Source: Cytophagaceae bacterium (GTDB lineage: Bacteria > Bacteroidota > Bacteroidia > Cytophagales > UBA9547). From it: a stretch of DNA of 38,940 nucleotides. The notes under the pieces are model-generated. The model saw nothing but the letters and a program-made list of their open reading frames with translations, made no database searches and was not told the DNA's origin. The stretch lies in NCBI GenBank assembly GCA_027488865.1, contig JAIYAU010000006.1, forward strand, positions 1-38,940. The letters run 5' to 3'. Both the position numbers and the translations under genes were made by a program. Position 1 is the stretch's first letter; the number at the start of each line of letters is the position of its first letter. This document shows, one piece after another, positions 5,369-38,940 of the stretch.

Positions 5369-8300
5369 TTGATTCAATTATTAAAAATATTAATTGTACT
5401 CTGTTCAACAGCGATGTTGAATGTATGTTTTGGACAAAGCTCCCAATACAAAAAGGTGGTTACTATAAAAACTGGCGTGCTTGTTCAATTAGACACAGCA
5501 ACCATTTATCCCAGTTCAATAAAAATAGTTGGAGATTCTGCCGCCAACTACACTTTTTACGCATCGCTTAATTCGATTCGGGTAAATTCATCAAATGACT
5601 CTTTAAAAGTTAGTTTTCAATCGCTGCCTCTTAATTTGTCCAAACGTTATTTCCATCGTGATATACGTCTGTTGGATACAGTGAACTACGCTTTTAGCGA
5701 TCTTACACAATATAGAAAAAATTTATACAAGCCGGTTGAACAGCGGGAAGAACTGTTTTCTACTGATAATTTTAATAAAACGGGAAATATATCAAGAGGA
5801 ATTTCTTTTGGAAACACCCAAAGTGTTTTTGTTAATTCTTCCCTCAATCTACAAATGGAAGGGAAAATAACCCCTGAACTAAAACTAACTGCCGTTATCT
5901 CAGATCAAAATATTCCTGTTCAGCCCAATGGAAATACACAAAATATTCAACAGTTTGACCGAGTGTATATTCAATTTGAACGCGAAAAAGGAGGGAAGCT
6001 GATAGCAGGAGACCTTGTAATGAAAAATAAAGAAGGGTATTTTCTTAAATATCTTAAAAACGTACAAGGTGCACAAGGAGAATTAGGTTATAAGGTTTCA
6101 AAACATAGCAATGCGTATACATTAGCGGGCATTTCATTTGCTAAAGGCAAGTTTAACTCTTTGCAGCTCAATGGTACAGGCTTCGACAATAGTCAAGGTG
6201 CAATTTTAAGGGAAGGTGTTGCAGGACCTTACCGACTTTCTGGGGCTAACAACGAACGATTTATAACTATCATTGCTAATTCTGAAAAGGTTTTTTTAGA
6301 TGGCAATCCTTTGAAACGTGGGTTTAACTATGATTATGTAATAGATTACAACACGGCTGAAATTACATTTACATCCAATATAATTATCACTAAATTTTCT
6401 CGTGTTCGGGTAGATTATGAATATACCGAACGCAATTATTCTCGTACCAATTACCAATTATTTCACCAACAAAATTATAAAAATCTTGAACTGTCACTTA
6501 ATTATTATGCAGAAAAGGATAATGCCCGCAATCCGTTAACCATTTCCCTTACTGATGAAGATAAAAAACGATTGTCTCTTGTAGGTGACACCTTGTCCAA
6601 AGCAATAGTGCCCAGTGGAGATTCTATAGGTTATTCTGCTGGTAGCATTTTATATAAGTTAGTAAAAGATACTTTGGTGGGTTTAAATACTTATTCCAAT
6701 GTTTATGTTTATTCCACCAATCCACAAAATGCTGTTTTTCAGGTATCTTTTACGCAAGTTGGCGTTGGAAATGGCGATTATATTCAGGTAATCACTGCTA
6801 CCAATGGTCGCATTTACCAATGGGTGCCACCAGTGAACGGACAAAAACAAGGTAGTTATCAACCTTCTCGCCTCATTGCAACTCCTAAAAGTTTAGCCAT
6901 GTCTACCATTGGCCTAAAGTATAAAATATCATCAAAACAGGAAATTTACACTGAATCAGCATTTTCACAAAACGACCTCAATCTATATTCGGCTATAGAC
7001 AACGTTGATAACCAAGGAAAAGCATTTAAAGTAGGTTACAGAAACCAAGAGGCGAAGTTGTATAAAAACTTAAAATGGTATGGAAATGTTGATTTTGAAT
7101 ATTTGGATAAGTATTTTACCCCTGTGGATAGGTTTAGGTCGGTTGATTTTGACCGTGACTGGAACGCCAGTAATACCACAGTAAATAACTTTTCTAACCA
7201 ATTGACTCAATTAAAGGCGGCTGATCAAATTGCTGCTTTTCAACTTGGAGTAAAAAATCAGCTTGGCAATATTTCTTATAAATATATCAACCGACAAAAA
7301 GATAATGATGTACTTGGAGGTCAACATAAAATTGATTTTTTCAAAAGGCGAGGCAGCTGGCAAGTAATGGGTGATTTTTATAAAATGAATAATCAAACTC
7401 GGCAGTCTAATGCTGAATGGACTAGATATAATCTAGGAATCAATTATTTGGCTAAATGGCTAACACCTGGGTATAATTATACCATAGACAAAAATAAGGT
7501 TTATGCCGTTGGAAAAGACAGTATCTTGTCAAGCGCAATGTATTTTGAACAACATAGATTTTATATCAAGAATAGCGACAGCAGCAAATCAAAGTTTCTT
7601 ATTGACCACACGATTCGCCAAGATAACATACCACTGTTAGGTGCCTTACCTGTAGCCACACAATCGAATACTTCTACATTAAATCTCTCTAAAAAGGTAG
7701 ATAAAACAAACGATATTTTACTAACTACTACATATAGAAAGTTGATTAACAAAGTTAAAACTGATTTACAGCAGCCTACCCTTGAGGAAACTTTGATGGG
7801 CCGAATTGACCTAAACAGCCTTTGGTGGAAAAAGAATATTAGGTCAGAATTGACAATAGCATCTACTACTGGGCGAGAGCTTCGCAAAGAATATGTTTAT
7901 TTGGCGGTGGCTACAGGCCAAGGTAATTACACATGGAGGGATGACAACAAAGATGGAATACAGCAGCTGAATGAGTTTTATGAAGCCATTAATCCTGATG
8001 AAAAAAATTATCTTAAAACATATGTCCCCACCGACCAATACATTAGTGCCTTCACCAACAACTTTAACTATCGCCTTAATGTGGTGACACCAAAAGAATG
8101 GAAGACTTCTAAAATAAAATTTTTAAAGTTATTGTCTAAATTTAGCAACAATACACAATACACCGTTGATAAAAAAGTCACCGACAATGTATTTAAATAC
8201 AGATTTGTACCTTTTTTAAATGACATACCCGATTCGGTATTGCTCACCAACCAATCCATTACACGATCTACTTTCTTTTTTAATAGAACAAGCCCCGCTT

Positions 8301-30665: not shown

Positions 30666-31211
30666 GTGGCCAACGATAATATCAAAATAGAGGAAGCTAA
30701 GTTGGTAGTTTTGTTAAAAACACAAAACGAAAAGGGTTATAATTACATATATGATAATTATGCACCTGCACTTTATGGTATCGTATTAAAAATATTAAAA
30801 GACCCCACACAAGCAGAAGATGCTTTACAAGAAACTTTTGAAAAAATTTGGAAAAATATTGATAAATATGATTCAACAAAAGGAACCTTATTTACTTGGA
30901 TGTTGAATATTGCACGTAACAAGGCAATAGACAAAACTCGTTCAAGCAATTTTAAACAAGCTGATCAAATCCGAGATATAGAAAAGGTCGTAAATTATGT
31001 AGATGTAAAAAATAATAGCAGTACTTATATTGAAGGAATTGGTCTTAGAGAGATATTGACCAAATTAAAACCTGAGTTGTTTGAGGTAGTAGAGTTATTA
31101 TATCTCAAAGGATATACACAAGTAGAGGCTTCTGAGGAATTAAATATACCACTCGGTACGGTAAAAACTAGAATTAAAACAGCGTTAAATTATTTAAGAA
31201 CATTGGTATAA
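30666..31211 (+). CDS. ECF-type RNA polymerase sigma factor
   Basis: This 181-residue group IV sigma factor has region 2 (about 25-95: YIYDNYAPALYGIVLKIL, DALQETFEKIWKN, TWMLNIARNKAIDKTR) and region 4 (about 125-178: LYLKGYTQVEASEELNIPLGTVKTRIKTAL). It lacks regions 1 and 3. The start is GTG (GTG-GCC-AAC); an upstream ATG in frame is absent. Its TAA stop is followed directly by the GTG of the anti-sigma gene, so the two are coupled. The RskA partner suggests the SigK-like branch. Confidence 0.92.
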   Translation: MANDNIKIEEAKLVVLLKTQNEKGYNYIYDNYAPALYGIVLKILKDPTQAEDALQETFEKIWKNIDKYDSTKGTLFTWMLNIARNKAIDKTRSSNFKQADQIRDIEKVVNYVDVKNNSSTYIEGIGLREILTKLKPELFEVVELLYLKGYTQVEASEELNIPLGTVKTRIKTALNYLRTLV

Positions 31212-31985
31212 GTGCAAATTGAAGAATACATATCGTCTGGAATATTAGAACTCTATGTGGTTGGCGCCACCACAGAAGAGGAGAACCGTGAAATAGAACA
31301 AATGGCTCAATCAAATGAATTGATTAGAAACGAACTACGTAAAATTGAAGGTTCTATAGAAAATTTTGCACAACTTGGAGCTGTAAGTCCACCCTTGGAT
31401 ATTAAACAGAAAATTTGGGAAAACTTAAAGAATGATTCAACAAAATCGGTGAAAATATTTCAAATTAATTCAATTAGGTTTTATGCCATAGCAGCAAGTG
31501 TCGTTTTATTGATTAGTGTTGGGTTTAATTTTGTACTTTTTAGTAATCTCAAAGAAACCGAAGAAAAACTGGCAATTGCACAAACAGAAAATTTTAGAAT
31601 AGCTGAGGAGGTAAAAATTAACCAGCTCAATTATACTTATGCACAAAAAGAAATAGATCTTTTACGAAATCCTAATGGTGAAGTGGCGGATCTTATATCT
31701 ACTTCTCCTGAGTTTGTGGCAAATGCCTATGTGTATTGGGATAAAAAAAATAAGGAGGTGTTTATTAATGTACAAAAATTACCTGTTCCTGAAGGCAATA
31801 AACAATATCAGCTTTGGGCTTTGGTAGATGGCAAACCAGTTGACGCAGGAGTTTTTGAGGTTGGACTAAAAGGCTTACAAAAAATGAACAAAATTGAGAA
31901 TGCACAAGCCTTTGCTGTTACCTTGGAAAAATTTGGTGGCTCCACTACACCTACCTCAGAAATTTTAGTTATTGGAAATATCTAA
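31212..31985 (+). CDS. RskA-type anti-sigma factor
   Basis: The 257-residue protein holds back the sigma factor encoded immediately before it. An N-terminal cytoplasmic sigma-binding part (about 1-85, EEYISSGILELYVVGATTEEENREIE) is followed by one membrane helix (about 89-110), a short coiled coil (about 113-135), and an RskA C-terminal domain outside (about 150-257, VYWDKKNKEVFINVQKLPVPEGNKQYQLWAL). The start is GTG with zero spacing from the sigma stop. Release of sigma by regulated cleavage is expected from the family but not shown here. Confidence 0.92.
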   Translation: MQIEEYISSGILELYVVGATTEEENREIEQMAQSNELIRNELRKIEGSIENFAQLGAVSPPLDIKQKIWENLKNDSTKSVKIFQINSIRFYAIAASVVLLISVGFNFVLFSNLKETEEKLAIAQTENFRIAEEVKINQLNYTYAQKEIDLLRNPNGEVADLISTSPEFVANAYVYWDKKNKEVFINVQKLPVPEGNKQYQLWALVDGKPVDAGVFEVGLKGLQKMNKIENAQAFAVTLEKFGGSTTPTSEILVIGNI

Positions 31986-32125: not shown

Positions 32126-33739
32126 TTATTTAATCACTGTAATGTTTGTAAGCTTTTGGTCATTTAACAAAATAACATAATAACCAGCATCTACCAAAGA
32201 CCCATTAGACCCTTCTCCTGACCAAACCACAGGGGCGACAAGCTGTTGCACTATTTTACCTGAAACATCTACAATCTTTACATTTCCTTTTTCTTCAATA
32301 AAATATGAACTGCTCGTTTGCTCATTTGAAATTGAGATTACTTGATCACAATTGCTTAATTTTTTTAAAATAATCTCTTTGGATGTAGTACAATTATAGA
32401 AGTCGAAAAAAGTTAGATTGTACCTGCCTGGTGACGTGTTTTCAAATATTCCGTGATTGTTAATAACATTGCTACTATTTGCTAACGAGGGATTTAACCC
32501 TAATACATAACGATATGGACGAACAGCACCTTCAAATTGAGTAAGAATTTCTAGTTCCATACCTTTGCCACAATCTTGCTGATTTATTTGATGGTCAAAT
32601 TGTTTAATATCCATACAATCGGCAATTTTTAAGGTAAACAATTCCTCATATAAGGTGAGATTAGGTAAGGCAGTAGAACTAACTTCTACATAAAAATGTC
32701 CAGAATCTAATTTAGCTAGTGATGCTATTTTGTAGACATTAACATTAGAATTTTGAACTAAACTTCCGTTCTTATAGAAACGATAAACAATATTATTTAG
32801 GTTGATATCAACATTACTTGAAATTACAAAGGGTCTCAATTCTCTTTCGGTTAATTTTAATTTTGACTTTATACTATCCTGTGGAGCGTAAATAAACCTT
32901 GAGATTCCTATATTTGCTAATGGTATTAAGTCGTTAAAAGTCAATTGGTTGTTACTTACATTTAATTGGTCAAGGTTTGGTTTGTTAGTGAGTTGTGGTA
33001 AAGATGTAAGTTTGTTGTTTTGTGCGAGCAATGAAGTAAGTTTGATATTTTGTGAAAGTCCATCTAGCGTTTCCAACTTACAATCTTCACAATAAAGTTT
33101 TTCTAGATTAGTTAAGGAGTCTAAGTAAGGAATTTCCTTTATGGGTGTTAAATGGCACTGTAATTCTTTTAAAAGTTTGTTTTTACTTAGAATAGGAAAT
33201 GAATCTAAGGGGTTGTTTCCAATATAAAGTCGAGTAAGCTTAGTTAGTTTTGAAAGATTTGGTAGCTCTTTTATTTTATTATCAGAAACAAATAAAAAAT
33301 TTAAATTAGGTTGATTTTCTAATTTTGGTAGCGAGGTGAGGTTGTTATATGCTGCTTGAATCTCTATTAGTTTAGTAAGTTTGCTAAGATTGGGCAAACT
33401 GTCTATTTGGTTAAAATTGGCATATAAATATTGTAAATTCTTAAATCCTGTTAATTCGGGAATCCTCTTGAGTTTATTGACACTAACTTCTAATTTATAG
33501 AGTGAAACAAAATGTTCTATACCAGTTAGGTTTTCTATATTGCTTCCAAGGAGATTTAGGTCGGGGAAAAATGTACTAGCGGCGGCAATGTTTAATTCAT
33601 TTCCAATCATCAATGTTGGGTAGTCGCGCAATAGCTTATTTCTAAAATTGGTATCAGGCAATACCATCGTTTGACCTATCCCATTAATAGAGAGGTAAAT
33701 AAAGATAATAGTTTTAACAATATTTTTCTTAAACTTCAC
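32126..33739 (-). CDS. Secreted leucine-rich-repeat protein with SprB-like domain and T9SS-type tail
   Basis: The 537-residue protein has a signal peptide (MKFKKNIVKTIIFIYLSIN, cleavage near IGQ, about 23). Residues about 55-275 are leucine-rich repeats with the core LxxLxxxxNxLxxLP, some eight to ten copies. Later come an Ig-like section (about 295-360) and a SprB-repeat-like section (GAVRPYRYVLG, SPGRYNLTFFDFYNC). The end (about 460-537) resembles a T9SS C-terminal domain (VDVSGKIVQQL, DAGYYVILLNDQKL). The start is GTG, 1 bp after the stop of the upstream anti-sigma-like gene. Surface exposure and protein binding are likely; the ligand is unknown. Confidence 0.82.
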   Translation of the reverse strand: MKFKKNIVKTIIFIYLSINGIGQTMVLPDTNFRNKLLRDYPTLMIGNELNIAAASTFFPDLNLLGSNIENLTGIEHFVSLYKLEVSVNKLKRIPELTGFKNLQYLYANFNQIDSLPNLSKLTKLIEIQAAYNNLTSLPKLENQPNLNFLFVSDNKIKELPNLSKLTKLTRLYIGNNPLDSFPILSKNKLLKELQCHLTPIKEIPYLDSLTNLEKLYCEDCKLETLDGLSQNIKLTSLLAQNNKLTSLPQLTNKPNLDQLNVSNNQLTFNDLIPLANIGISRFIYAPQDSIKSKLKLTERELRPFVISSNVDINLNNIVYRFYKNGSLVQNSNVNVYKIASLAKLDSGHFYVEVSSTALPNLTLYEELFTLKIADCMDIKQFDHQINQQDCGKGMELEILTQFEGAVRPYRYVLGLNPSLANSSNVINNHGIFENTSPGRYNLTFFDFYNCTTSKEIILKKLSNCDQVISISNEQTSSSYFIEEKGNVKIVDVSGKIVQQLVAPVVWSGEGSNGSLVDAGYYVILLNDQKLTNITVIK

Positions 33740-33740
33740 T

Positions 33741-34805
33741 TTACCTGATTAAAGTTATTTGTCCAGTCTCTTTTTTGCCACCTTTGTACTCCACAATATA
33801 AACATACAAACCTAAAGGGAGTAATCCTCCTTGAACGGAAGCTCCATCCCAATCAAAGTTACCTGAAATATTTTTAATAGAAAATACACTTTGGCCACTT
33901 TGGTTAATAATATCTAAATTATAATCTTCGTTAGATTCTGGTTGAAATTTCCATAATTCGCCAAGGTCGGGTGAAATGATAAAAGATTTGGCATTACATT
34001 GTTTTTTTTCAACAACAGTATGCTTCGTTTCGTTACAACCCAATTTATCCGAAACAACTATATCATAGCTACCTGATGCAAGATGTGCTAAGTAATTAGT
34101 TTCAATTTGATTAATTTTGATTAGATAGGGTGCATTTCCACCTCTTATCGTTGATAAATTTACTTTTATAGTGCCTTCTGTTTTGTTATCACAAGTAGGC
34201 GTAGTTTCTGTTTCCCAATGCATATGAACACCATTACACGGTTTTATTACAGAAACTTGTTCGTCCACCTTAATTTTTTCGATAGGAGTAACTACCTCGT
34301 TTTTAACGATGTTAACCTTATTCTCTAAAATTGTATTTTCATTTTCTTGAGAGCCTTCTAAGTTGGTGTTGTTAATTGCGTGCTTCGTAAAGGTATCGTT
34401 TGGTTTCAATCGAATAAGCGTATCTAACTTGTTTTTAAGTACTAGTGGCGATTTTTTTACCTCCTGTATTTCATTAAATTGGACCTTTTGGGGTTTTGTT
34501 TCATTTGAAAAGGAAATGGTAAAAAAGGCCGCACCAGCCACTATTGAAACGCCTAAAATTACTGACAACCAAAATTTAAATGAAAATCTAGATTCAAATT
34601 TCTCTAAATCAGTTTTCATTTGTTGTCTTAAATTTTCATTGTATCCACATACTACTACCTCATCTACAATCTTATATAATTCTACCTCTTGCGAAAGGTT
34701 AGAGTTGTTATGAAGTTCGTTTTCAAAATCCTTCAATGCATCACCTTGCAACTTCGATTGAAGGTACATATCAATAAGTTCGTAGTTTATGTCTGAATAT
34801 TTCAA
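33741..34805 (-). CDS. Anti-sigma-like membrane protein with SprB-like repeat and gliding/T9SS type-B-like C-terminal domain
   Basis: This 354-residue protein begins with an acidic helical, cytoplasmic part (about 1-75; the LQGDALKDFENELHNN segment resembles anti-sigma starts). One membrane helix spans about 77-99. A polar linker (100-195) leads to a SprB-repeat-like domain (about 198-262; GGNAPYLIKIN, LASGSYDIVVSDKLGC) and a gliding-motility-associated C-terminal domain (about 270-354; LDIINQSGQSVFSI, FDWDGASVQGG, LGLYVYIVEYKGGKKETGQITL). No cleavable signal peptide is visible. Start is TTG, overlapping the ECF sigma stop by four bases (TTGA). The join of an anti-sigma position and a T9SS-like tail is the notable feature. 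Confidence 0.8.
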   Translation of the reverse strand: MKYSDINYELIDMYLQSKLQGDALKDFENELHNNSNLSQEVELYKIVDEVVVCGYNENLRQQMKTDLEKFESRFSFKFWLSVILGVSIVAGAAFFTISFSNETKPQKVQFNEIQEVKKSPLVLKNKLDTLIRLKPNDTFTKHAINNTNLEGSQENENTILENKVNIVKNEVVTPIEKIKVDEQVSVIKPCNGVHMHWETETTPTCDNKTEGTIKVNLSTIRGGNAPYLIKINQIETNYLAHLASGSYDIVVSDKLGCNETKHTVVEKKQCNAKSFIISPDLGELWKFQPESNEDYNLDIINQSGQSVFSIKNISGNFDWDGASVQGGLLPLGLYVYIVEYKGGKKETGQITLIR

Positions 34806-35377
34806 TTTTTCAAGGTGTTATAAATTTCAGGATCACTTTTTACCAATTTTGATAAATATTGTTTGCAGCGATAATGGTTGCTTTTAGCAACGTCTTCGTT
34901 CGCGTAGCCCATTTTGTCTTTTATTTCTTTCATGGTCAACTTGTGATAAATGACGTAACTTAAAATTTTTTTACATTTTTCATCAAGTTGATTAAATATT
35001 TTGCTCATTGCTATCGATTTTTCGTTGTTTACCAATTGATCGAGTTGGTTGATAGCCTCATTGTTAATTTCAATATTATATACATCAACATCTTTGCTCA
35101 ATCTGTTATCTTTTCTTACTTTATCTATCCATAAATTTCGAGCCACGCTGTAAATAAACCCTTCTAGTGACTGAGTGGTATCAAACTTGTTTTCTCTTAT
35201 GTAGTTAAACAGAACAATTACGGCGTCTTGAAATATATCCTTAGCATCCTCTTTCGAGCCATTGTTTTTTAGTATGTAAGTACGAACTTTTCGTAAAGGG
35301 CTTTCGTACAGGTAGTCCAATGCATGTCTATGCTCACCGCTTTTGATAGAATCTATAATTTTTCTTTCTTTGCTCAT
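34802..35377 (-). CDS. ECF-type RNA polymerase sigma factor (second)
   Basis: I place the start at ATG 35377 (MSKERKIIDSIKSGEHRH), giving 191 residues; the frame runs up to 35431 without a sensible N-terminus. Region 2 is visible as ALDYLYESPLRKVRTYIL, DAKDIFQDAVIVLFNYI and EGFIYSVARNLWIDKVRK; region 4 as KILSYVIYHKLTMKEIKDKMGYANEDVAKSN. The HTH is somewhat atypical (ANEDVAKSNHYRCKQ). The stop overlaps the start of the membrane protein downstream, so coupling is likely. The gene is divergent from porP/sprF-like 35463 with about 85 bp between starts, so they may share control. Confidence 0.88.
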   Translation of the reverse strand: MSKERKIIDSIKSGEHRHALDYLYESPLRKVRTYILKNNGSKEDAKDIFQDAVIVLFNYIRENKFDTTQSLEGFIYSVARNLWIDKVRKDNRLSKDVDVYNIEINNEAINQLDQLVNNEKSIAMSKIFNQLDEKCKKILSYVIYHKLTMKEIKDKMGYANEDVAKSNHYRCKQYLSKLVKSDPEIYNTLKN

Positions 35378-35462
35378 TGTTATATAAACTATACGTGTTG
35401 AAGTGTTAAAAGTAAACAGTATCATTACCATTTGTTGTTATACAATATGTTAAGGTTAAGTA

Positions 35463-36341
35463 GTGAGGGTTAATTTTATATATTTTATTTTACTATCAGC
35501 AACAATCCTGTGGCATACGAATGCCTATGCCCAAATTTTAGATAATTCAATTGTAGAGTTTAACCAATTTTTTCTCAACTATGATAACCTCAATAGTGCT
35601 AATCAAGATTCTAGCGCCTTAAGAATTGTAGCTGGAAATAGAACCTATAGGGGATTGTTTGAAGGAGTAAATAGGTTATATACAAGCGGTTCGATAAGAA
35701 TCAATCATAAAAGTGAAACACAATATAGCAATGTAGGTGTGTTAGTGCAACGATTTAATGACGGGCCATTTATCAATCGCACAAGAATGTATGCACGTTA
35801 TGCCTGGACAGGAAAGCTTGGCATGCGCTCCTCTTTATCGGGAGGTGTTGCGTTCGGAGGGGTAAATTATTTTTTTTCGTCCTCACAAATGGGTGGTGGG
35901 GGAAGTGCAACGGCCTTAGATGCCAATGCTGGAATCTGGTATTTGAGGCCACAATTAAAAATAGGACTATCCTATAATCAATTTGTTTATTCAGTACTTA
36001 AGCCTGTTAGACAGTCATTTATTCTAATGCCTTATTGGAATGTAAATCTTATTTACGTTGTTAATTTCACTAGTCAAATTTATTTAACAAATCATTTTTA
36101 TTTATACCATTCAAGGTATAATTCTAGTTATCAAGTGGCACCCATATTTAATGTTTACCACTACGTACAAGCGGGCATCAACTACCAACATTTAAAAGGT
36201 GTTGCTATTATATTTGGGATTAAAAACATACCCATAGTAAATGGGAATCTGGAAATCTTGGGTTCATTTTTTTTGAGAACTCAAAACATTGCCACCTCAG
36301 CGGACAATGTTATTGAAATTGGAGCAGGATATTCGTTTTAG
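35463..36341 (+). CDS. PorP/SprF-family type IX secretion membrane protein
   Basis: PorP/SprF proteins are outer-membrane barrels needed for secretion or attachment of type-B T9SS cargo such as SprB. The 292-residue product has a signal peptide (MRVNFIYFILLSATILWHTN, cleavage near AYAQ, about 24), then FNQFFLNYDNLNSA, the family's N-terminal pattern, and beta-strands with a final GAGYSF. Start is GTG. Family members commonly lie next to a gene with a gliding-associated C-terminal domain; here that partner is the divergent anti-sigma-like protein. Confidence 0.85.
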   Translation: MRVNFIYFILLSATILWHTNAYAQILDNSIVEFNQFFLNYDNLNSANQDSSALRIVAGNRTYRGLFEGVNRLYTSGSIRINHKSETQYSNVGVLVQRFNDGPFINRTRMYARYAWTGKLGMRSSLSGGVAFGGVNYFFSSSQMGGGGSATALDANAGIWYLRPQLKIGLSYNQFVYSVLKPVRQSFILMPYWNVNLIYVVNFTSQIYLTNHFYLYHSRYNSSYQVAPIFNVYHYVQAGINYQHLKGVAIIFGIKNIPIVNGNLEILGSFFLRTQNIATSADNVIEIGAGYSF

Positions 36342-36562: not shown

Positions 36563-38940
36563 ATGGATTATACGTTTAAACAATACCGAAATTTTATTTT
36601 TGTTGTACTATGCCTATTCAAATCTGTTGTATTCGGGCAAGGGTTCACTACTAATAGCGCAGCAGGTTCAGGACTACTATTAGACGCCAACGGAAATAAC
36701 TTTGTAATAAAAGGAATGAACGTTCCTCTGGACTGGTATAGGACATTTGTAAATGGTAGCATTGATGATGTACGAAGAAATACGAATTCCAACTGCCTAA
36801 GAATAGTACTTACAACCAATACTCCAGACAATGTTTGGCAAACTGCTGTACAGAATTGTATCGACAATGATATCATTCCTATGGTTGAATTGCACGATGT
36901 AACAGGAAATACTGATGAGAATGAATTGATAAGAATGGGTCGCTGGTGGGCGAGCAAGGCTTCATATTTAACTCGACCAGAAATTGCAAGATACATTTTA
37001 ATAAATATTTGCAACGAGTGGGGAACTTGGCAAACAGCCACCTCGAATGGAGCCTCATGGCAGAGAGCTTCTGTGGGTGCCATAAGGGCAATGAGAGAAG
37101 CTGGTATAAAAACAACGATTGTTGTGGATGCCGTAGGTTATGGGCAAGATGTTGATGATGCTAGAAATTTAAGAGCTTACGGAAGAGCAATGCAGCAATC
37201 AGATGCAGGTTTTTTAAATGGACCAGCTAATCTATTGTTTTCAATACATATGTACTGCGAATGGGCTGTCGGTAGAGATAATATCGACATCATTGGAAAC
37301 ATTAAAAGCATGGGTATTCCGGTAATTGTTGGTGAATTTGGATACCAACATGGCGAAGGAAATGGAGTATGTGACATAGATGAGCAAGGAATTATGGATG
37401 CTTGCCAAAGACACGGTGTGGGTTGGTTGGCATGGTCTCAAAAAGGAAATGGTGGTGGCGTAGAATATTTGGATTTATGTAACGATTGGGAATGTACAAG
37501 CCTAAGTGGCTGGGGAAATACAGTAATTAACGGTAGAAACGGAACTAAAACTGCCAATACTTGCTCTGTATTTCTAAGTAATCCTCCTTCACCTAAAAAA
37601 TATGGTACTAACGTCGCACTTAATAAGACTGTTACTGTTACTTCCACAGAAGCTGTATTTGGAAATATAGCATCAAATGCGACTGATGGAGGCCAAACTA
37701 CGCGTTGGTCAAGTTTATATGCTGATCCACAGACTATAACCGTAGACTTAAATGGAGTATTTTTAGTAGATACCATTGTTCTAAGGTGGGAAGCGGCATA
37801 TGGCAGTGCTTATACTATTGAAGTATCAAATGATAATCTTACTTGGAATCGCGTTTTTCAAACTACTACTAGCAACGGAGGGGTAGATGAGATTCCACTT
37901 CCCAATGTAACAGCACGCTATGTGCGTTTAACAGGTACTGTAAGGGCTACCACATTTGGATATTCACTATTTGAATTTGAGGTTTATGGTTCAGAAACGT
38001 GTGTTGCTACTATTAGCACCACTACACCCACTACTTTTTGTGACGGTGGTTCAGTTACCTTAACCGCAAGTGCCGGAAGTTCTTATATTTGGAGAAAGGG
38101 AACAGTACAAGTTGGTACAGCAAGAACTTATTCCGCAACATCCTCAGGTAATTATTCTGTTGAGGTAACCAATGCCGCAGGTTGTAAAGCAACATCAAGT
38201 GCTACTTCAGTTACCGTAAATCCATTACCTGCTGCCAGTATCAGCACTACCACACCAACTACTTTCTGTGAAGGAGGTTCGGTTACGTTAACTGCCAGTG
38301 CAGGAAGCTCCTATATTTGGAAAAATGGAAATACAGCATTAAGTACTACTTCCCAAACCCTAACTACAACTACAGCAGGTTCTTATACGGTCGAAGTTAC
38401 CAATGCAAATGGTTGTAAAGCTACTTCCGCCGCAACAACTGTAGCCGTAAATCCTTTGCCAACTGTAACTATCTCAACCACTACGCCTACAACATTCTGT
38501 GAAGGAGGTTCGGTGAGGTTAACTGCAAGTGCAGGAAGTTCTTATATTTGGAAAAATGGAAATACGACATTAAGTACTACTATACAAACCCTAACTGTAA
38601 CTGCAGCAGGTTCTTATACTGTCGAAGTAACCAATGCGAATGGCTGTAAAGCTACTTCTGCGGCAACAACAGTAGCTGTAAATCTATTGCCTGCTGCCAC
38701 TATCAGCACTACTACACCACTTACTTTCTGCCAAGGAGGAAGTGTAGTATTAACTGCAAGTGCTGGTAGTTCTTATATTTGGAAAAATGGAAATACGACA
38801 TTAAGTACAACAAGTCAAACTTTAACTGCAACTGCAGCAGGTTCTTATACTGTTGAAGTAACCAATGCGAGTGGCTGTAAAGCTACTTCCACGGCAACAA
38901 CAGTAACTGTAAATCCATTGCCAACTGCCACTATCTCAAC
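36563..38940 (+). CDS. Secreted GH5 (subfamily 8-like) mannanase/cellulase with discoidin-type domain and Ig-like repeats, partial
   Basis: The frame opens at ATG 36563 and runs off the window end (792 residues visible). A signal peptide (about 1-26, ends FGQ) precedes a GH5 catalytic domain (about 30-335): GMNVPLDW, MVELHD, INICNEWGTW with acid/base Glu152, FSIHMY, VIVGEFG with nucleophile Glu258, and GWLAWSQKGN. The pattern is that of endo-beta-1,4-mannanases (GH5_8), though cellulase activity is possible; Gln replaces the usual Trp of WSWKGN. Residues about 350-478 form an F5/8 type C (CBM32-like) domain (NVALNK, RWSS, YVRLTG). Tandem Ig-like repeats follow from about 483. A T9SS sorting domain is expected beyond the window. 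Confidence 0.88.
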   Translation, partial: MDYTFKQYRNFIFVVLCLFKSVVFGQGFTTNSAAGSGLLLDANGNNFVIKGMNVPLDWYRTFVNGSIDDVRRNTNSNCLRIVLTTNTPDNVWQTAVQNCIDNDIIPMVELHDVTGNTDENELIRMGRWWASKASYLTRPEIARYILINICNEWGTWQTATSNGASWQRASVGAIRAMREAGIKTTIVVDAVGYGQDVDDARNLRAYGRAMQQSDAGFLNGPANLLFSIHMYCEWAVGRDNIDIIGNIKSMGIPVIVGEFGYQHGEGNGVCDIDEQGIMDACQRHGVGWLAWSQKGNGGGVEYLDLCNDWECTSLSGWGNTVINGRNGTKTANTCSVFLSNPPSPKKYGTNVALNKTVTVTSTEAVFGNIASNATDGGQTTRWSSLYADPQTITVDLNGVFLVDTIVLRWEAAYGSAYTIEVSNDNLTWNRVFQTTTSNGGVDEIPLPNVTARYVRLTGTVRATTFGYSLFEFEVYGSETCVATISTTTPTTFCDGGSVTLTASAGSSYIWRKGTVQVGTARTYSATSSGNYSVEVTNAAGCKATSSATSVTVNPLPAASISTTTPTTFCEGGSVTLTASAGSSYIWKNGNTALSTTSQTLTTTTAGSYTVEVTNANGCKATSAATTVAVNPLPTVTISTTTPTTFCEGGSVRLTASAGSSYIWKNGNTTLSTTIQTLTVTAAGSYTVEVTNANGCKATSAATTVAVNLLPAATISTTTPLTFCQGGSVVLTASAGSSYIWKNGNTTLSTTSQTLTATAAGSYTVEVTNASGCKATSTATTVTVNPLPTATIS
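38009..38940 (+). repeat. Tandem 231-bp (77-residue) Ig-like repeats
   Basis: Within the GH5 gene, one 228-bp and three 231-bp units start at 38009, 38237, 38468 and 38699; a fifth begins at 38930 and is cut. Each encodes TISTTTP-TFC, GGSVTLTASAGSSYIW, GSYTVEVTN and a second Cys in GCKAT. Units 2-4 are nearly identical, so they expanded recently, and the array probably continues past the window. Confidence 0.93.

Follow-up and report, generated by a model that had tools for sequence, protein, structure and literature searches.

The DNA considered here is a contig of 38,940 nucleotides from a Cytophagaceae bacterium (JAIYAU010000006.1, hereafter the window), in which the gene of an extracytoplasmic function (ECF) sigma factor lies between the genes of a putative anti-sigma factor and of an outer-membrane protein of the PorP/SprF family. 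According to sequence comparisons, these genes belong to a cassette that is composed of the ECF sigma factor, an anti-sigma-type protein with one transmembrane (TM) helix, a PorP/SprF protein from a clade of its own, and a further protein, in many cases with leucine-rich repeats (LRR), that carries a C-terminal module of the same type as the anti-sigma-type protein. The cassette would be a self-contained surface-signalling unit, whose anti-sigma factor reads the complex of PorP and surface protein by means of an export-dead docking module; a probability of roughly 0.55 is assigned to this reading.

All parts of the cassette that are claimed from sequence are present in the window. The sigma gene (34802..35377, minus strand) encodes a protein of 191 amino acids, which matches Sigma70_r2 at 6.2e-9 and TIGR02937 at 6.9e-20. 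It overlaps, as described in the original prediction, by 4 nt with a membrane-protein gene (33741..34805, minus strand, TTG start); the identical overlap is found in 54 of 95 related loci. The encoded anti-sigma-like protein of 354 amino acids contains one TM helix, an SprB-like repeat with conserved cysteines at both ends (residues 190-270; 33996..34238, minus strand), and a C-terminal domain (CTD) of the kind used by the type IX secretion system (T9SS), which is devoid of a PNxDGxxD-type loop (residues 285-354 plus stop; 33741..33953, minus strand). Starting 1 bp past its stop, a gene with a GTG start (32126..33739, minus strand) encodes the LRR protein (LRR_4, 4.8e-24), which ends in a similar C-terminal module. 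The PorP/SprF-family gene is located on the other strand, divergent from the sigma gene and at a spacing of 85 bp (35463..36341, plus strand); its assignment was confirmed by PF11751 at 3.8e-16 and 59.9 bits, compared with a cut-off of 22.3, PorP_SprF being the only Pfam match. The extent originally given to the feature (33741-36341) is too short and should reach 32126, the LRR protein with its repeat-plus-CTD tail having been missed.

The cassette recurs within the genome of the window and beyond. A genome search with the anti-sigma protein retrieved four relatives of similar length, in addition to adhesin tails; three of these loci (L010, L011, and L012) contain sigma factor, CTD-bearing anti-sigma protein, PorP, and CTD-bearing protein together, and the fourth (L013) has neither CTD nor PorP. 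Including L072, which was found by profile search, the genome holds five cassettes. Among ten genomes of the family, CTD-bearing copies covering most of the profile amount to four in the window's genome, eleven in G002, and nine in G008. At 1e-15, matches were obtained in 45 of 194 genomes from the order, a figure that counts large adhesins and CTD-less proteins as well; by our own count among the matches listed, at least 21 genomes have near-full-length copies. Outside the order, where samples of 395 genomes each from phylum and class were searched, near-full-length copies were found, among the matches listed, in G599 and G834 only, both from the class sample. In these wide scans 5 to 10 candidates were scored per genome, and copy numbers as well as absences are lower bounds. 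Carriers named in a separate scan with sigma proteins include Cytophaga aurantiaca DSM 3654, Sporocytophaga genomes, and Chryseosolibacter histidini.

Altogether, 95 CTD-bearing loci were compared. Searches with a CTD-containing profile, together with the surroundings of their matches, supplied 84 of them and the sigma scan another 10, the window itself being the last; most were therefore chosen for the CTD and not for PorP. The set includes close relatives (71 clusters at 50% identity), and no thinning was applied other than for identity over the last 60 residues. The neighbour tables do not contain L001-L009, which are short duplicates or matches to adhesins; anti-sigma matches longer than 460 amino acids or without an N-terminal match were dropped as well. 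The gene position of an anti-sigma factor, which had been noticed in the window, holds for the family, since a sigma gene is adjacent in 94 of the 95 loci, L034 beginning at a contig end. Neighbourhood to PorP, the proposed check on the relatives, was found within 7 kb in 91 of 95 loci, with 82 PorP genes divergent from sigma (counting L055, with one gene in between, at 2.9 kb) and nine otherwise arranged. The refuting case named in the original prediction, relatives that are never neighbours of ECF sigma or PorP genes, is thus contradicted. PorP is missing from L034, L045, and L047, whose contigs end close by, and from L056. A CTD-bearing surface protein is encoded within 9 kb in 85 of 95 loci, 68 times directly downstream; behind the 85 stand 84 distinct proteins, one L029 copy having been counted with the surface protein of the neighbouring cassette.

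Linkage to PorP follows the presence of the CTD. Among 69 loci of CTD-less related anti-sigma proteins, PorP is near in two only (L086 and L088), both of them broken copies of the CTD type; near position 7558 of these Sporocytophaga loci, the CTD-type anti-sigma gene is disrupted, with sigma and PorP retained. After clustering at 50% identity, the counts are 68 of 71 for CTD-bearing versus 1 of 36 for CTD-less loci. In the sigma scan, which took sigma proteins from CTD-type cassettes as queries and covered 80 loci, PorP accompanies 14 of 15 CTD-bearing loci, both broken copies, and none of the 63 others, the fifteenth CTD-bearing locus (L110) being a contig of 3.7 kb, equal in length to the contig of L047. 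This result was obtained with a PorP profile built from cassette PorPs and four others; PF11751, applied genome-wide to 13 genomes and the window's own, gave over the 13 genomes no match near any of 12 CTD-less loci, among the matches listed. Chance adjacency of the parts is ruled out by the recurrence of the cassette. SprA is present in all eight genomes tested.

The anti-sigma-like protein and the surface protein are predicted to have a common C-terminal module consisting of repeat and CTD. The claim of an SprB-like repeat stands in part: cysteines 190, 205, 257, and 270 and a GG..PY core recur in the alignment of 24 relatives, while the Pfam SprB match of the window protein, at 16.3 bits, is below the cut-off of 28; L011 and L035 have no such repeat. 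The T9SS- or gliding-type CTD, by comparison, is recognized above threshold, with CHU_C (PF13585) covering residues 285-348 at 35.7 bits versus a cut-off of 27 (9.8e-9); TIGR04131 (17.8 of 35 bits) and TIGR04183 both remain sub-threshold. The structural model of the protein, built with 24 sequences in the alignment (mean pLDDT 76, pTM 0.37), shows helices at residues 3-15, 21-33, and 35-102, a disordered stretch at 103-183, and a beta part from residue 190 onward at high confidence. When residues of about 272-354 were compared by VIA-align, T9SS CTDs occupied ranks 1, 2, 4, and 10, with NucA (8glk_D) as the top match (Z 9.4, root-mean-square deviation 1.5 Å over 68 residues), followed by PorU (Z 9.3), PorZ (9.0), and RemA (8.3). 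With rows within one Z unit regarded as tied, the modelled similarity to T9SS CTDs is supportive, not unique.

Type B cargo of the T9SS is known to remain bound to dedicated PorP/SprF carriers, by which it is anchored at the surface (PMC12635249, PMC9143113, PMC12618676), and five conserved type B motifs were each required for the secretion of SprB or its recognition by the carrier (PMC12618676). The PNxDGxxD-type loop is read here as one of these five motifs. It occurs in none of the 95 anti-sigma tails versus 60 or more of the 86 CTD proteins encoded close to cassettes; the 60 is a lower bound, since the pattern misses near-variants such as those in L045 and L070, and no fewer than one of the 86 is a type A enzyme (L019, 9250-11487). 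The CTD of the anti-sigma factor would thus be a docking module that is apparently export-dead.

Three helices are predicted in the N-terminal part, with the first 78 residues modelled as helical and the third helix continuing into the TM segment in the full-length model; the latter spans approximately residues 80-98, and the best hydrophobic 19-mer begins at residue 80 in a scan that covered only residues beyond 40. The anti-sigma model NF052375, with a cut-off of 100 bits, finds two of four CTD-bearing proteins tried, namely L016 (residues 9-53, 2.5e-4, 21 bits) and L036 (residues 12-42, 0.0095, 16 bits), both far below the cut-off; L018 and the window protein gave no match. Together this suggests a weak sequence kinship to anti-sigma proteins. 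VIA-align with the 78-residue N-terminal model returned one row (MsbA, Z 3.4), and a profile search of the PDB with the N-terminus listed, among its matches, a Nif11 protein at 0.008. No FecR domain is found among the Pfam matches of the window protein up to E 1. The linker between the TM helix and the first cysteine of the repeat measures 105 ± 9 amino acids in the 80 of 95 proteins in which the pattern was found. In principle, a linker of about 105 residues is long enough to cross the periplasm.

CTD-less relatives have the same kind of N-terminus in combination with other modules, such as an HtrA-like protease or tetratricopeptide repeats (TPR), and the anti-sigma-like proteins can be described, from their predicted domains, as a modular family with exchanged sensor parts. 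In relatives from Chitinophaga and Sphingobacterium (L140, 7568-8662, and L128, 7564-8682), the periplasmic part is an HtrA/trypsin-like protease domain. In a metagenome-assembled genome of the Bacteroidales (L114, 3146-4492), a single reading frame appears to join a sigma factor with an anti-sigma-like part and TPR repeats.

The surface proteins of the cassettes vary in their fronts and keep their tails. An LRR part is present in 64 of 85, and the other fronts include immunoglobulin (Ig)/DUF2341 and sub-threshold laminin-G matches. The tail of the window's LRR protein consists of an SprB-like stretch and a CTD-like end, both of which can be aligned with the tails of surface proteins from three further cassettes; its CTD is too degenerate for a CHU_C match in Pfam. 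Nine hand-picked large neighbouring genes include secreted polymer-degrading enzymes (glycoside hydrolase family GH9, pectate lyase, and rhamnogalacturonan lyase), and six of the nine possess type A tails. In the window, a GH5-type cellulase with F5/8 and Ig_7 repeats (36563-38938, plus strand) directly follows PorP and runs off the contig end; it may be a target or substrate link of the cassette. On the opposite flank, a second ECF sigma/anti-sigma pair, with a SigK-like sigma factor and an RskA_C anti-sigma factor (30666-31985, plus strand), is encoded end to end with the LRR gene, the two ends lying 140 bp apart.

Sigma factors and carriers of the cassettes form clades of their own. In a sigma tree of 162 leaves, one split with a support of 0.996 holds all 93 CTD-type sigma factors that were placed, together with only the two broken copies; not on the tree are L034, which has no sigma gene, and L045, whose sigma gene is a short piece. 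After PorPs of fewer than 240 amino acids had been dropped, 84 of the 86 remaining cassette PorPs were separated, with a support of 0.998, from the 21 non-cassette PorPs encoded in the genome of the window. The two others, L070 and L071, have PorPs from outside the cassette clade and kept the linkage, which thus seems, judging from the tree, to have persisted through a switch between PorP lineages. In L070 (5386-11712), sigma factor, CTD-bearing anti-sigma protein, a strong CHU_C cargo, PorP, and a PorE-like protein follow in one run; the last, encoded behind PorP, has beta-propeller and carboxypeptidase-regulatory parts and a weak TPR, as if a PorE-PorP-cargo anchor were wired to a sigma factor. 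The window's genome contains 25 PF11751 matches, the four weakest of which are all cassette PorPs, that of the window among them; the PorP of L010 has no Pfam match. Median tail length is 9 residues in cassette PorPs versus 24 in 19 other PorPs of the genome (Mann-Whitney p 3.5e-8), and the final 25 residues contain a [CST]P motif in 14 of the 19 ordinary PorPs (L197-L215) versus 19 of the 86 cassette PorPs. A gliding adhesin on its track was considered as an explanation and judged less likely, none of the 86 cassette PorPs containing Cys-X-Cys in the last 40 residues; this carries little weight, because the 21 non-cassette PorPs, and also L014 and L015, do not have the Cys-X-Cys motif either.

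A promoter-like site of the sequence GTTTACTTTT-N12-CGTA is located 5' of the sigma gene (35392..35417, minus strand) and ends 14 nt 5' of position 35377, which fits the assigned start of the sigma gene. The motif G(A/T)TTAC-N14-20-(T/C)GTA, with the A/T position optional, was derived from k-mers enriched in the very regions that then served for counting it. Of 81 divergent regions between sigma and PorP, 14 were dropped as near-duplicates; among the remaining 67, the motif occurs on the sigma strand in 29, in 23 of them with a spacer of 16, and shuffled regions contain it at a mean of 0.64 and a maximum of 3. This suggests that the sigma operon would be autoregulated. A wider regulon of the window's sigma factor was not supported, as the exact pattern occurs once in the genome versus two matches of the reversed control; a single match proves nothing.

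Co-variation was analyzed over 76 cassettes, 19 of the 95 not being complete enough, and without correction all parts co-vary. After correction for the sigma factor and the anti-sigma N-terminus, the anti-sigma CTD remains correlated with the cargo CTD (r 0.345, p 0.001), also within the 58 LRR-type cassettes (r 0.284, p 0.001). For the anti-sigma CTD and the cargo front, the corrected value is 0.40 (p 0.001; LRR-type only, 0.10, p 0.11), for PorP and the cargo front 0.13 (p 0.05; LRR-type, 0.30, p 0.001), and for PorP and the cargo CTD 0.17 (p 0.02; LRR-type, 0.07, p 0.2).

In the proposed working of the cassette, the LRR surface protein would be exported by the T9SS and then docked on its PorP, while the anti-sigma factor would be held in the inner membrane, its CTD touching the complex of PorP and surface protein from the periplasmic side. 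Having lost the loop of cargo tails, this CTD would be able to dock and unable to be exported. Binding of a ligand to the surface protein, or an altered occupancy of PorP, would change the contact and free the sigma factor for the transcription of its own operon of sigma factor, anti-sigma factor, and surface protein. This would correspond to a FecA-FecR-FecI-like mechanism in which a T9SS carrier replaces the TonB-dependent receptor.

With FecA-FecR-FecI, where the regulator receives the signal at its periplasmic C-terminus (PMC9249621), the cassette has in common an ECF sigma factor, a one-TM anti-sigma factor with a long periplasmic part, and a presumed receptor in the outer membrane; it differs in that its anti-sigma factor has no FecR domain and instead a T9SS-CTD-like periplasmic domain, its outer-membrane protein is PorP/SprF and not a TonB-dependent transporter, and its outside partner is a separate protein. 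As in PorE-PorP-PG1035 of Porphyromonas gingivalis and SprF-SprB of Flavobacterium johnsoniae, a protein with a CHU_C-type tail is encoded beside a PorP/SprF gene, and the PorE-like gene behind PorP in L070 recalls the former system (PMC9143113, PMC12618676). Unlike such type B cargo/carrier pairs, the cassette has a built-in sigma/anti-sigma pair, and its anti-sigma factor carries another tail module, from which the PNxDGxxD-type loop is missing. The T9SS is also tied to an ECF sigma factor and a CTD protein in the PorX/PorY/SigP system, where PorA is the CTD protein relaying a surface signal and a two-component system activates SigP; in the cassette, however, the CTD sits on the anti-sigma factor itself (PMC7712824). 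Class I anti-sigma factors resemble the cassette protein in a gene coupled to that of the ECF sigma factor, N-terminal helices, and one TM helix (PMC7406223); as to the four-helix sigma-binding fold of this class, the models of the cassette protein show three helices, for which no fold match was found. A T9SS CTD on an anti-sigma factor was not found described among the matches listed in searches of open papers, and ECF classification tables might list this context.

Several observations weigh against the surface-signalling reading. When the model of the 78 N-terminal residues was used for fold searches, no anti-sigma structure was returned (the best E in Foldseek being 4.6), and RsrA appears at no better than E 1.2 among the matches listed from a PDB profile search with the full profile. 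In the CTD comparison an unrelated amylomaltase reaches Z 9.2, tied with the T9SS CTDs, and in plain Foldseek with the complete model the top places go to other Ig-like chains, PorU coming 11th. The window's own LRR surface protein, in which the loop is degenerate, has no intact loop either. The corrected correlation of the anti-sigma CTD with PorP is r 0.06 (p about 0.2); a constraint common to both CTDs is favoured by these data, and a specific match of CTD and PorP gets no support. Within genomes, the similarity of an anti-sigma CTD to the cognate cargo CTD does not significantly exceed that to the other cargo CTDs (p 0.19; 55 cassettes, 10 genomes), on which ground gene conversion between the two was rejected as the cause of co-variation; over all pairs, cognate CTDs score slightly higher (0.81 versus 0.71). 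The promoter motif is found on the PorP strand in 2 of 67 regions only, so that PorP under the same promoter was discarded, and PorP seems, as far as motifs tell, to be controlled otherwise than the sigma operon. Finally, L056 (5626-7170), with CTD-bearing anti-sigma factor and sigma factor and the nearest PorP more than 80 kb away among the matches listed, is one clear, true exception to PorP linkage.

The original prediction had the tail of the anti-sigma factor report secretion capacity or cargo load. We infer, likewise, that this tail may bind PorP or the shuttle; as to what it would report, the LRR surface protein makes surface-receptor sensing at least as likely as secretion-capacity sensing. 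Close to the earlier idea is an occupancy sensor, in which the anti-sigma CTD and real cargo compete for empty PorP and the sigma factor has the surface protein made only when carriers are free, a homeostatic control with no external ligand. It would account for the repeat and CTD common to anti-sigma factor and cargo, the motif in front of the sigma/anti-sigma/cargo operon and not of PorP, and the corrected co-variation of both CTDs; yet up to 11 paralogous copies per genome with varied surface-protein fronts resemble a set of sensors, the lack of a significant cognate CTD preference within genomes also speaks against it, and we consider it rather unlikely. External sensing is favoured over pure carrier counting, because the fronts of the surface proteins vary and many copies exist per genome.

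Another explanation has the CTD act as a generic Ig-like sensor domain in the periplasm, with PorP and surface protein merely co-regulated neighbours; it would agree with unrelated Ig-type chains also reaching Z 7-9 and with the lack of CTD/PorP co-variation after correction. Against it, PorP is near in 91 of 95 CTD-bearing versus 2 of 69 CTD-less loci, and also in L070 and L071 with their PorPs from outside the cassette clade, which renders this explanation improbable. Still more doubtful is the anti-sigma factor as a T9SS substrate, whose CTD is drawn through SprA and docks outside, the chain either spanning both membranes or being cut during export. The fold resembles exported CTDs and the linker is long, but all 95 tails are without the PNxDGxxD-type loop, with SprB having needed each of the five type B motifs (PMC12618676), and a hydrophobic stretch is found near residue 80.

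In its broader form, the surface-signalling reading would make a secretion carrier a signalling receptor: in many parallel cassettes a PorP/SprF barrel, together with the surface protein docked on it, would signal across both membranes to an anti-sigma factor with an export-dead version of the docking module found on the cargo, an ECF route distinct from that of TonB-dependent transducers. This generalization is put forward tentatively, its chances being a little short of even. If it is true, the T9SS carriers that hold surface proteins in Bacteroidota would also be inputs to gene control, and about ten such signalling lines would run in parallel in one genome. One clade of PorP/SprF and the LRR surface proteins in Cytophaga and relatives would thereby obtain a partner and a job, and the meeting of type B CTD and carrier would become testable with a natural, apparently export-dead variant.

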